From assembly GCA_902769875.1 (NCBI GenBank), contig CACXQV010000008.1, positions 1 through 64,000 on the forward strand: 64,000 bases of DNA, read 5' to 3'. Each line of letters begins with the position of its first letter. The stretch's first letter is position 1. The position numbers and the translations under genes were made by a program. Below, in pieces: positions 35,419 to 38,528 of the stretch. The DNA comes from an uncultured Bacteroidia bacterium. GTDB lineage: Bacteria; Bacteroidota; Bacteroidia; Bacteroidales; F082. The notes beneath the pieces were generated by a model. That model saw only the letters and a program-made list of their open reading frames with translations, was not told the DNA's origin and did not search any database.

Positions 35419-35515
35419 CACAATTATCTTCGTTTTCGGATGTTATTTGGGGCATAATATAGATAGTTTTTCTGCCCTTTGAGTGAAAAATGGCTTTCCT
35501 GAAAGGATTTTTCCC

Positions 35516-35523
35516 TATTTTTG
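35516..35523 (+). promoter_or_regulatory. -7 box of the putative steroid-reduction operon (TATTTTTG)
   Basis: 17 bp before the ATG at 35541. It supports that start rather than 35490, which lies upstream of the box. Confidence 0.6.
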
Positions 35524-35540
35524 AAACAAAAATCATTGGT

Positions 35541-36308
35541 ATGACTTTGCACTATTTCAATGTGTTTCTGATAGTTATGGCCGTTGTTGCCGTGGTGGTG
35601 TTTGTGGCATTGTTTTTCGTGGATGCTGGCTACGGCAAGTTCTACGACAAGAAATGGGGGTTCGCCGTCAACAACAAGCTCGGTTGGGTGTTGATGGAAT
35701 CGCCGGTGTTTGTGACGATGTTGCTGCTCTGGCTCTTTTCCGAACGGCGCGACGATTTGGTGCGGTTGGCCTTTCTGTTCCTCTTCGAACTGCATTACAT
35801 CCATCGTTCATTCGTGTTCCCGTTGCGCCTGCGCGGAAACAACCTGATGCCTCTTTCAATCATCCTTATGGGAGTGGTTTTCAATGTGTTGAATGCAATG
35901 ATGCAAGGCGGCTGGATTTTCTACCTTTCGCCCGCCGATTATTATCCAGCCGATTGGCTCACCGACCCAAGATTCATCGCCGGATTTGTCGTTTTCATTT
36001 TTGGTATGTTTGTCAACATCTCGTCCGACGACATCATTCGCAACTTGCGAAAGGACGGCGACACGCGGCACTATCTCCCCAAAGAGGGTATGTTCCGCTA
36101 TGTCACTTCGGCCAATTATTTCGGCGAGATCGTTGAATGGGTGGGCTTCGCCATCCTCACTTGGTCGTGGGCTGGCGCGGTGTTTGCCCTCTGGACCTTC
36201 GCCAACTTGGCCCCACGCGCTTCGCGGATTTATGACCGATACCAAGCTGAGTTTGGCGACGAGTTGGACACGAAAAAAACAAAGAGAATCATACCTTTTA
36301 TCTTTTGA
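35541..36308 (+). CDS. Steroid 5-alpha-reductase family protein (SRD5A-like)
   Basis: 255 residues with about six to seven membrane helices, almost exactly the length of human SRD5A2. The vertebrate enzyme's motifs are visible: LMESPVF carries Glu53 (SRD5A2 Glu57), HYIHRSFVFPLRLRG carries Tyr86 (SRD5A2 Tyr91), and NISSDDIIRNLRK, YVTSANYFGEIVEWVGFA and the C-terminal IPFIF match the NADPH-binding half. The predicted reaction is NADPH-dependent reduction of the delta4 double bond of a 3-oxo-steroid to the 5-alpha product, in the membrane. It is followed 3 bp later by an Old Yellow Enzyme gene and then an SDR gene. A non-steroid enone substrate cannot be excluded. Confidence 0.9.
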   Translation: MTLHYFNVFLIVMAVVAVVVFVALFFVDAGYGKFYDKKWGFAVNNKLGWVLMESPVFVTMLLLWLFSERRDDLVRLAFLFLFELHYIHRSFVFPLRLRGNNLMPLSIILMGVVFNVLNAMMQGGWIFYLSPADYYPADWLTDPRFIAGFVVFIFGMFVNISSDDIIRNLRKDGDTRHYLPKEGMFRYVTSANYFGEIVEWVGFAILTWSWAGAVFALWTFANLAPRASRIYDRYQAEFGDELDTKKTKRIIPFIF

Positions 36309-36311
36309 ACT

Positions 36312-37547
36312 ATGGAAAACTCTACGATATTCACTCCTTGTGAGATTGGGCCTGTCACTTTGCGCAACAGGGTGATACGCTCGGCTGCCTTCGAGAATAT
36401 GGCCTACGGCAACCGTCCATCCGACGATTTGTTCAACTATCACACGGCGGTGGCGCGTGGTGGTGTAGGGATGACGACGGTGGCCTACGCTGCCGTCAGT
36501 CGCTCCGGGCTTTCGTTCAACGGCCAGCTTTGGATGCGCGAGGAAATCGTCCCCGACCTGAAACGCCTCACCGATTCGGTTCATTCCTACGGCGCCAAAG
36601 CGTCAATCCAGCTTGGGCATTGCGGCAATATGACCCATCGTTCCACCTGCGGATGTATGCCCGTGGGCGCGTCGCGTGGGTTCAATCTTTATTCCCCGAC
36701 GCTTGTCAGGAAACTCAAGAAGTCGGAAATCTATGAGCTTGTCTTGGACTTCGGAAAGGCGGTCGGTTTGGCCCGTAAGGCAGGCTTCGATTGCGTTGAG
36801 ATTCATGCCGGCCATGGCTATCTGATCAGCCAGTTTTTGTCGCCTTACACCAACCATCGTCACGATGAGTTCGGTGGCACGCTCGACAATCGGATGCGTT
36901 TCATGAAACTCGTCATCGAAGAGGTGATGCGTGCTGCGGGCAACGATTTGGCCGTAGTGGTTAAGGTGAACATGCACGATGGTTTCAGTAAGGGAATGCA
37001 TAAAGACGATTGCATCATAGTGGCGAAGGAGTTGGAGAAACTGGGCGTGCATGCGCTTGTGTTGTCGGCTGGTTTCGTCAGCAAGGCCCCGATGGAAGTG
37101 ATGCGTGGCGCGATGCCGCTCAAAACCTTGCGTTATTATATGGATCGGAAGAAATTCTGGTGGCTCAAGGCGGGTTTGGCCGTGTTTGGCCGCACCATGA
37201 TTCCAACCGTGCCATTTGCCGAAGCCTATTTCTTGGAGGATGCCAAGGAGTTTCGTGATGCGCTGAAAATGCCTTTGATTTACGTTGGCGGCATGGTTTC
37301 GCGAGAAAAGATGGAAGAAGTCCTCGATTCGGGCTTCGTCGCCTTGCAAATGGCCCGTGCCTTGATTAACGACACCGACTTTGTCAACAAGCTGCACAGA
37401 GGCGAGTTGACGCGCAGCGAGTGCAAGCATTCCAACTATTGCATCGGGCGTATGTACACATTGGAAATGAAGTGCCATCGTTGCGTCGATGAGGAACTGC
37501 CCAAGAGCATTCGCAAAGAAATCAGGAAAGCCGAAAAACGGGGTTGA
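36312..37547 (+). CDS. Old Yellow Enzyme-type NADH:flavin oxidoreductase
   Basis: 411 residues: an FMN-binding TIM barrel only, without the C-terminal FAD/NAD domain of BaiCD or dienoyl-CoA reductase. It has FTPCEIGPVTLRNRVIRSA at the N-terminus and the active-site block HAGHGYLISQFLSPYTNHR (about 165-183), continuing DEFGGTLDNR. The C-terminus keeps four Cys (371, 377, 388, 391) in a C-x5-C-x10-C-x2-C pattern that differs from the 4Fe-4S motif of long members. Predicted reaction: reduction of an activated C=C bond, perhaps as the 5-beta or another enone reductase partner of the SRD5A-like protein. It ends 1 bp before the SDR start. Confidence 0.88.
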   Translation: MENSTIFTPCEIGPVTLRNRVIRSAAFENMAYGNRPSDDLFNYHTAVARGGVGMTTVAYAAVSRSGLSFNGQLWMREEIVPDLKRLTDSVHSYGAKASIQLGHCGNMTHRSTCGCMPVGASRGFNLYSPTLVRKLKKSEIYELVLDFGKAVGLARKAGFDCVEIHAGHGYLISQFLSPYTNHRHDEFGGTLDNRMRFMKLVIEEVMRAAGNDLAVVVKVNMHDGFSKGMHKDDCIIVAKELEKLGVHALVLSAGFVSKAPMEVMRGAMPLKTLRYYMDRKKFWWLKAGLAVFGRTMIPTVPFAEAYFLEDAKEFRDALKMPLIYVGGMVSREKMEEVLDSGFVALQMARALINDTDFVNKLHRGELTRSECKHSNYCIGRMYTLEMKCHRCVDEELPKSIRKEIRKAEKRG

Positions 37548-37548
37548 A

Positions 37549-38364
37549 ATGGGTTTGGACAAGTGGAACCGGCGTTTTCAAGAGGCATTTGGGCATCAGC
37601 CTTGTGCCTTGGTGACGGGCGGCAGCTCTGGAATGGGCTTGGAATATGCCCGACAATTGGCTGAAATCGGGTGCAATTTGTTGTTGGTCAGCAATCAAGA
37701 AGAGGAACTTGGTAAAGCGTCTGAGTCGTTGTCAGGCCGGTTTTCCGTGCAAGTAATGACGCATTTTCAGGACTTGTCCAATGAATTGGCGGCTGACGAA
37801 CTGCTGGCGTTTTGCAAAAGTGAAAATCTCCAAATCGACATCCTCATCAACAATGCAGGAATGTTTTTCTTTGAGGAATTGACACCCGAAAACGAAGCCA
37901 AAGCCTTGACGATGATGCGGTTGCATGTGTTCACCCCGATGCGGCTCTGTGTCTTGTTTGGCGACGAAATGAAACAACGTGGCTGTGGATACATCGTGAA
38001 CATGTCGTCGATGGCGGCCAATTTGCCTTGCCCTGGCATTACCGTCTATTCGGCCACGAAAGCCTATCTGAAGAGTTTTGGCAAGTCGCTCTATTTCGAG
38101 ATGCGCCCTTATGGCGTGGGGGTCACAACGGTTTGTCCCGCAGCCATCGCCACCCCACTTTATAAGCTGAAACCCAGTTTGTTGCGCCTTGGAGTGAAAA
38201 TCGGACTGATTGGGACGCCGCAATGGCTGGTGCGCAAGGCGTTGAAAGGCATGGCACGGAAGAAAAGGGTGGTGAAGCCGGGCTTCATGAACGTTTATCT
38301 TCCCCCTTTGATCGCTGTTTTGCCCAAAAGATTGGTCAGTTTCCTGTGGCAAAAGCTCAAATGA
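37549..38364 (+). CDS. Short-chain dehydrogenase/reductase (candidate hydroxysteroid dehydrogenase)
   Basis: 271 residues, classical-SDR fold. TGGSSGMG (23-30) is the cofactor loop, NNAG is at 101-104, the catalytic Ser is at 153/154, and the YSATK motif gives Tyr167 and Lys171. The C-terminal extension (RLVSFLWQKL) is hydrophobic, as in 17-beta-HSD12/3-ketoacyl-like SDRs. The start at 37549 follows the upstream stop by 1 bp. In context it may interconvert a 3-keto and 3-hydroxy steroid, but fatty 3-oxoacyl substrates are also possible. I see no terminator within the next 150 bp. Confidence 0.88.
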   Translation: MGLDKWNRRFQEAFGHQPCALVTGGSSGMGLEYARQLAEIGCNLLLVSNQEEELGKASESLSGRFSVQVMTHFQDLSNELAADELLAFCKSENLQIDILINNAGMFFFEELTPENEAKALTMMRLHVFTPMRLCVLFGDEMKQRGCGYIVNMSSMAANLPCPGITVYSATKAYLKSFGKSLYFEMRPYGVGVTTVCPAAIATPLYKLKPSLLRLGVKIGLIGTPQWLVRKALKGMARKKRVVKPGFMNVYLPPLIAVLPKRLVSFLWQKLK

Positions 38365-38520: not shown

Positions 38521-38528
38521 TATTTTTG
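38521..38528 (+). promoter_or_regulatory. -7 box (TATTTTTG)
   Basis: 37 bp before the ATG of the DUF5606 gene at 38566. Confidence 0.6.

Follow-up and report, generated by a model that had tools for sequence, protein, structure and literature searches.

A 64,000-nucleotide stretch of contig CACXQV010000008.1 (assembly GCA_902769875.1), which derives from an uncultured Bacteroidia bacterium (Bacteroidales, F082) and is referred to here as the window, encodes side by side an SRD5A-like membrane reductase (putative steroid 5alpha-reductase, 5AR, P0001), a flavin mononucleotide (FMN)-barrel flavoenzyme (putative 5beta-reductase, 5BR, P0002) and a classical short-chain dehydrogenase/reductase (SDR, P0003). 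Sequence comparison indicates, with a probability of about 0.7, that these genes make up one operon of the steroid A-ring isomerisation module known from gut Bacteroidota. The assignment is carried by observed features: what the genes encode, the catalytic residues they retain, the linkage conserved between loci and their joint occurrence. A link with a gut cluster of 5AR, 5BR and hydroxysteroid dehydrogenase (HSDH) genes, for which Sato et al. 2021 is reportedly the source, had been proposed in an earlier reading of the DNA letters by a model (the sequence-only reading) and has held up: the published make-up is matched, the clade and synteny of the window genes are those of loci in the gut genera Barnesiella, Alistipes, Sanguibacteroides and Heminiphilus, and for these reasons we file the window operon with the known cluster.

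According to the summary of the work of Honda and colleagues in PMC10382948, strains of Parabacteroides merdae, Odoribacter laneus and Bacteroides dorei produce isoallolithocholic acid from 3-oxo-delta4-lithocholic acid (LCA), the formation of alloLCA derivatives ceases when the P. merdae 5AR is disrupted, and the 5AR gene is clustered with two others, one for a BaiCD/BaiH-like NADH:flavin oxidoreductase and one predicted to encode a 3beta-HSDH. The same composition recurs in the loci compared here, namely the best 80 of 586 confirmed candidates retrieved with a profile built from nine homologues (individual loci are labeled L001 and so on); these 80 relatives include no P. merdae record. The genes for the 5AR-like protein and the flavoenzyme, a member of the Old Yellow Enzyme (OYE) family, lie side by side or nearby in 78 of them, with a median of 15 bases between the reductase stop codon and the point where the flavoenzyme match begins (60 or fewer in 73 of 77). 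The counterpart of the window SDR (SDR1) is present in 68/80 relatives and precedes the reductase gene in 12, and three of the loci that lack it (L032, L050 and L051) are cut off by the end of the contig. In the 68 sets with all three proteins (window included), pairwise distances are correlated at r = 0.85, 0.88 and 0.92, values not reached in any of 2000 permutations.

Joint occurrence was assessed in 392 Bacteroidales genomes, each at least 90% complete (labels G000 and so on), in which SRD5A-like genes fall into two score classes, a first at 332-460 bits (52 genomes besides that of the window) and a second at 197-268 bits (41 genomes, plus a cut fragment of 156 bits). The flavoenzyme, counted at 289 bits or more, occurs in 71 of the 392 genomes, 69 of which carry an SRD5A-like gene (51 of the first class, 18 of the second) versus 94/392 overall (Fisher 1e-52, uncorrected for kinship). 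In a sample of 20 loci of each class, taken with about 5 kb on each side where the contig allowed, the flavoenzyme stands beside the reductase in 17/20 first-class and 0/20 second-class loci. In a tree of 5AR-like proteins, the window protein and 51 other first-class sequences form one branch (support 100/99), separate from 20 second-class sequences. These data confirm that the three genes are a real, conserved unit, beyond chance. The position of the SDR and its identity to the window protein (37-83%) do differ between loci, and the most distant copies may not be the same gene because identity drops so far; conserved adjacency, co-divergence and joint occurrence nonetheless make it very unlikely that these are three unrelated reductases that adjoin by accident.

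Two side observations concern this distribution. Locus L106 (JAMPAQ010000001.1), labeled Pseudoflavonifractor (Bacillota), holds the complete set of reductase, OYE and SDR genes, and its reductase branches with that of Heminiphilus; perhaps it is a mislabeled Bacteroidales metagenome-assembled genome and not a case of transfer. Three genomes of family f2 (G036, with loci L167 and L168, G148 and G395) have two first-class SRD5A-like genes each, on separate contigs, and the G036 pair is without a flavoenzyme in the stretch fetched.

Conserved residues of the three proteins

P0001 matches the Pfam family Steroid_dh (PF02544) at 149.6 bits (cut-off 22.6), as found in a whole-genome profile search too, and it has three PDB matches at E <= 0.001, PbSRD5A (7c83, 1e-52), SRD5A2 (7bw1, 4.8e-39) and a probable very-long-chain enoyl-CoA reductase (7e-10). 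The sequence-only reading was to be given up if the proteins clustered with fatty-enoyl reductases; the SRD5A-type relatives are far ahead of the enoyl-CoA reductase, and a fatty-enoyl reductase is excluded as the closest kin. Residues were paired with SRD5A2 by alignment to the PDB sequence (SRD5A2 number = chain position minus 4), and conservation was counted over 81 reductase, 75 OYE and 68 SDR sequences, window included and too-short matches left out. E53 and Y86, equivalent to SRD5A2 Glu57 and Tyr91, are invariant in 81/81 sequences and in all 40 from the 392-genome survey, and F114, equivalent to the steroid-pocket residue F118, is kept in 81/81 and in 17/20 first-class survey sequences. 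Seven of the eight listed NADPH-binding residues are retained, each in 81/81 sequences: N159, D163, R170, N192, E196, R226 and Y234 (N160, D164, R171, N193, E197, R227 and Y235 in SRD5A2; residue roles as described in PMC7591894 and PMC7815742). The claim that the protein keeps the vertebrate 5alpha-reductase motifs thus stands for Glu53, Tyr86 and the C-terminal IPFIF and fails at two positions, since Gln56 is replaced by Met52 and His231 by Ile230, leaving M52-E53-Y86 (M-E-Y) as the catalytic motif in place of Q-E-Y. Gln56 is a trait of the enzymes treated in PMC7815742 and lies outside the Pfam definition, so the protein is filed in the Steroid_dh family, and we infer that it has 5alpha-reductase activity.

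The SRD5A-like superfamily also comprises polyprenal and very-long-chain enoyl-CoA reductases, and the substrate of P0001 might instead be a fatty enoyl compound or an isoprenoid enal, with the SDR and the flavoenzyme as partners. The protein shows weak similarity to Pfam DUF1295/PEMT, the comparison set contained no SRD5A3-type sequence, and the curated model closest to the SDR is a mycolate reductase, far under its cut-off. Such a role in non-steroid lipid metabolism is nevertheless quite improbable given the ranking of the structures, the retention of the Glu, Tyr and pocket Phe residues, the tight linkage to an OYE that resembles BaiCD, and the patchy occurrence of the first-class gene among the roughly 392 genomes, which fits a housekeeping lipid step poorly.

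P0003 belongs to Pfam adh_short (PF00106; 136 bits, cut-off 26.6), and its catalytic triad, S154, Y167 and K171, is intact in 68/68 sequences, in agreement with the earlier description of a classical SDR. Among curated models, none of the best 25 of the 211 matched reaches its cut-off, and the window SDR is regarded as a putative 3-hydroxysteroid dehydrogenase. A second SDR is encoded near the cluster in 48/80 relatives (for example, L055:10816-11676; best model PRK06197, under cut-off). It is not found beside the window operon, and the best match in a search of the own genome (29.5 bits, 32% identity over residues 2-139) is a different gene; since this genome is 82.6% complete, loss of the second SDR is uncertain.

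The flavoenzyme has Oxidored_FMN (PF00724; 191 bits, cut-off 27) as its sole Pfam domain, and H165, H168 and Y170 are invariant in 75/75 sequences, as expected from the active-site block noted earlier. Its top NCBIfam models are a mycofactocin OYE and then BaiCD, both far under cut-off; with 188.9 bits against the 825 needed for NF041087, the protein is not a BaiCD by that model. It also lacks, as previously noticed, the flavin adenine dinucleotide/nicotinamide adenine dinucleotide (FAD/NAD) domain of BaiCD, having 411 residues versus 642 model positions. The closest PDB entry by sequence is the YqjM-type OYE 1z41 (1.9e-35). A structure model (mean pLDDT, the predicted per-residue confidence, 88) finds 2tmd, 6qkg, 6l6j, 3k30, 6de6 and 1ps9 as top structural matches, and 1ps9, a dienoyl-CoA reductase, is tied with barrel-only OYEs. 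In this model, the predicted fold is shared with the Fe-S flavoenzyme class of dienoyl-CoA reductase, trimethylamine dehydrogenase and BaiCD, including the segment that follows the barrel.

The C-x5-C-x10-C-x2-C tail described from the sequence is present (C371, C377, C388 and C391). The first three of these cysteines are invariant in 75/75 sequences, and position 391 is Cys in 60/75 and His in 11/75. Position 374 is Ser in 61/75 and Cys in none of the 75 sequences; it is Cys in distant homologues, which align C-x2-C-x2-C-x10-C at the site of the tail. The cluster motif of dienoyl-CoA reductase is C-x2-C-x3-C-x11-C. In view of the alignment with distant homologues and of the structural matches, we set aside the suggestion that this is a distinct type of reductase; the tail resembles a changed version of the Fe-S motif seen in the BaiCD/dienoyl-CoA-reductase class more than something wholly new. 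The flavoenzyme of locus L066, left out of the alignment, has an in-frame stop on extension of its reading and is a possible broken copy or assembly error.

Probable order of the reactions and possible substrates

The direction of the published pathway is given in PMC9645264, in which 3alpha-HSDH and 5BR produce the 3-oxo-delta4 form, and 5AR and 3beta-HSDH reduce it. By analogy with these relatives, an SDR, either that of the window or another, would oxidize a 3-hydroxysteroid to the 3-ketone, and the flavoenzyme ("5BR") would turn the 5beta-3-ketosteroid into its 3-oxo-delta4 form by taking hydrogens off C4/C5. The 5alpha-reductase would then yield the flat 5alpha (allo) ketone, with E53 and Y86 polarizing the C3 ketone and hydride passing from NADPH to C5 on the alpha face, and the SDR would reduce C3 to the (iso)allo product. 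Overall, the A/B rings would go from cis to trans, the steroid losing and regaining hydrogen on the way. The literature on relatives is likewise the source for the probable stereochemistry of the SDR and for the likely substrate. The sequence-only reading had proposed delta4 reduction together with 3-keto/hydroxy conversion. In the published pathway, however, 5BR creates the delta4 bond that 5AR removes, so that delta4 reduction would fall to 5AR and not to both enzymes; the flavoenzyme would run oxidatively and act before 5AR.

A number of observations weigh against assignment to the known bile acid module. As to distribution, the flavoenzyme is not found near the reductase gene in two of the 80 relatives (L069 and L107) or, in the stretches fetched, in 3/20 first-class loci of the survey, and in one of the 52 first-class genomes (G036) the flavoenzyme match is no more than weak. 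Conversely, in two flavoenzyme-bearing genomes (G287 and G285) no SRD5A-like gene scores above 150 bits, and five loci (L182, L183, L184, L185 and L189, the last from G287) hold a flavoenzyme and SDR1-like pair with no reductase gene beside it. A match to P0001 is missing in 15 of 35 same-genus genomes, many of them incomplete. PbSRD5A groups with the second-class sequences and not with the window clade, on a long branch of unsure place. At the residue level, Met replaces SRD5A2 Gln56 in 81/81 and 40/40 sequences, and Q56A/L mutations are reported in PMC7815742 to abolish the activity of human SRD5A2; Ile replaces His231 in 73/81, and His is found in 17/20 second-class sequences. The P. merdae/Odoribacteraceae cluster proteins entered the comparison by description only. 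Finally, the titles of the 80 relatives, counted by eye, name a stomach compartment (rumen, reticulum, omasum or abomasum) in 21 cases, intestine or faeces in 11 and no site in 48, and the own genome, at its stated completeness, contains no convincing bile-salt hydrolase. The one match to the choloylglycine hydrolase family (L109:1219-2289, on G000:C5) is below both NCBIfam cut-offs and was rejected as a bile-salt hydrolase, with 41 of 350 bits and a nearer fit to the C45 acyltransferase model.

The lineage is found in stomach compartments, upstream of bile, which makes a bile acid a less obvious substrate. In stomach lineages, the module may perform the same chemistry on 4-en-3-ones derived from plant sterols or on other dietary steroids, so that 5alpha/5beta-stanones and stanols would be its products and bile acids only incidental substrates. 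Besides the habitat and the lack of a convincing hydrolase, microbial 5alpha- and 5beta-stanols in livestock faeces, with stanones as intermediates of stanol formation (PMC5217961), agree with this proposal. Bile enters at the duodenum, yet rumen microbes are involved in bile acid metabolism according to a review (PMC12944966), and bile acids added to rumen communities were converted, in vitro and in vivo, to allocholic acid, isoLCA, 3-keto and 3beta forms (PMC11193847). These products fit what such a gene set could make, though the latter paper does not use the terms 5-alpha- or 5beta-reductase. Moreover, no 3beta-HSD/isomerase-type gene was seen among the ten locus genes scanned, the rest of the genome not having been searched. 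The plant-sterol proposal is unlikely in our estimate. Taking all carriers of the module together, bile acids are the likeliest single substrate, though in the window lineage it may instead be a plant sterol or another steroid.

Second-class loci and surroundings of the operon

An extended SDR is encoded in 14 of the 20 second-class loci (L139-L158; for example, L142:3977-4960). Two of these proteins that were checked resemble Pfam Epimerase/3Beta_HSD, and one that was checked resembles the HpnA and sterol-demethylation SdmB models at scores below their cut-offs. An OYE relative occurs anywhere in the genome in 18/42 second-class genomes; in G107, G272 and G198 its distance is about 9-10 kb. 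The combination of a second-class SRD5A-like protein with an extended SDR and no flavoenzyme nearby is a possible second steroid or terpenoid module, as yet unstudied. One could go further and regard SRD5A-OYE-SDR as a module by which Bacteroidales in general carry out anaerobic redox chemistry on steroid A/B rings, and which predates bile acid metabolism and reaches beyond it; with it rumen lineages would make 5alpha-/5beta-stanones and stanols from plant sterols, the second form being a candidate for the 5alpha-stanol genes; we consider this rather improbable. If it were true, the flavoenzyme would have a remodeled Fe-S cluster with only three invariant cysteines, and an enzyme with such a cluster and no FAD/NAD domain might need an external electron carrier.

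Table 1. Features of the putative steroid A-ring operon (positions in the window)
Feature	Position	Strand	Evidence
SRD5A-like membrane steroid 5-alpha-reductase (putative 5AR, P0001), 255 aa	35541..36308	+	PF02544 149.6 bits; PDB 7c83, 7bw1
FMN-barrel flavoenzyme (putative 5BR, P0002), 411 aa	36312..37547	+	PF00724 191 bits; structural matches
Classical SDR (putative 3-hydroxysteroid dehydrogenase, P0003), 271 aa	37549..38364	+	PF00106 136 bits; S154/Y167/K171
TATTTTTG box (TAnnTTTG), putative operon promoter	35516..35523	+	pattern TANNTTTG; role inferred

The layout noted earlier, with three same-strand genes separated by 3 and 1 bp behind one -7 box, agrees with the coordinates in Table 1. 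The box, of the TAnnTTTG form that we take to be the Bacteroidota-type -7 consensus, ends 17 bases ahead of the first ATG (35541); other plus-strand copies lie inside the first gene at 36005 and, next outside the operon, at 38521. Because the motif is frequent in the window (60 observed versus 36 +/- 6 expected), a single box is weak evidence of a promoter, and a scan for sigma-70 promoters and terminators was uninformative (5 vs 2.7 and 4 vs 4.6 in shuffles). The first reading frame could alternatively start at 35490; the start at 35541 is favored because the box falls within that extension and the alignment of a same-genus relative begins at 35541. The Pfam scan covered ten genes, those of the operon and their neighbors. 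Upstream lies a glycosyltransferase gene on the opposite strand. Downstream comes a DUF5606 gene, with the 38521 box in front of it, and then genes for the electron-transfer and catalytic subunits of dihydroorotate dehydrogenase.

Relation to known systems

The operon is well explained by a known system, and its chief interest lies in its occurrence in stomachs, in the M-E-Y motif and in the unusual cysteine tail. With an intact, co-diverging module in ruminant-stomach Bacteroidales, the known range now includes sites above the bile duct and the native substrate becomes a testable question, and the motif and tail are signatures by which Bacteroidales 5AR and 5BR may be sorted from look-alikes. 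The iso-allo bile acids made by the known cluster are described as inhibiting Gram-positive gut bacteria (PMC10382948) and as acting on regulatory T cells (PMC11271093).

With the gut Bacteroidota 5AR-5BR-3beta-HSDH cluster, the window shares the same three kinds of genes in a cluster, with 3 bp between those of 5AR and the flavoenzyme; it differs in that its nearest relatives are largely from ruminant stomachs and that the second SDR of many relatives was not found here. P0001 is homologous over nearly its full length to SRD5A2 and PbSRD5A, with equivalents of Glu57, Tyr91 and Phe118 and all but one of the listed NADPH residues, and departs from them at Met52, Ile230 and Met110 (Arg114). The flavoenzyme resembles YqjM-type OYEs, its closest PDB sequences, in the catalytic His/His/Tyr. 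With BaiCD and ci2350-type 5beta-reductases it has in common the FMN barrel, the H-x2-H-x-Y motif, BaiCD as second-best NCBIfam model and the structural match to 1ps9, the structure employed for ci2350 in PMC12238238, whereas the missing FAD/NAD domain, the low BaiCD score and the altered cysteine motif set it apart.

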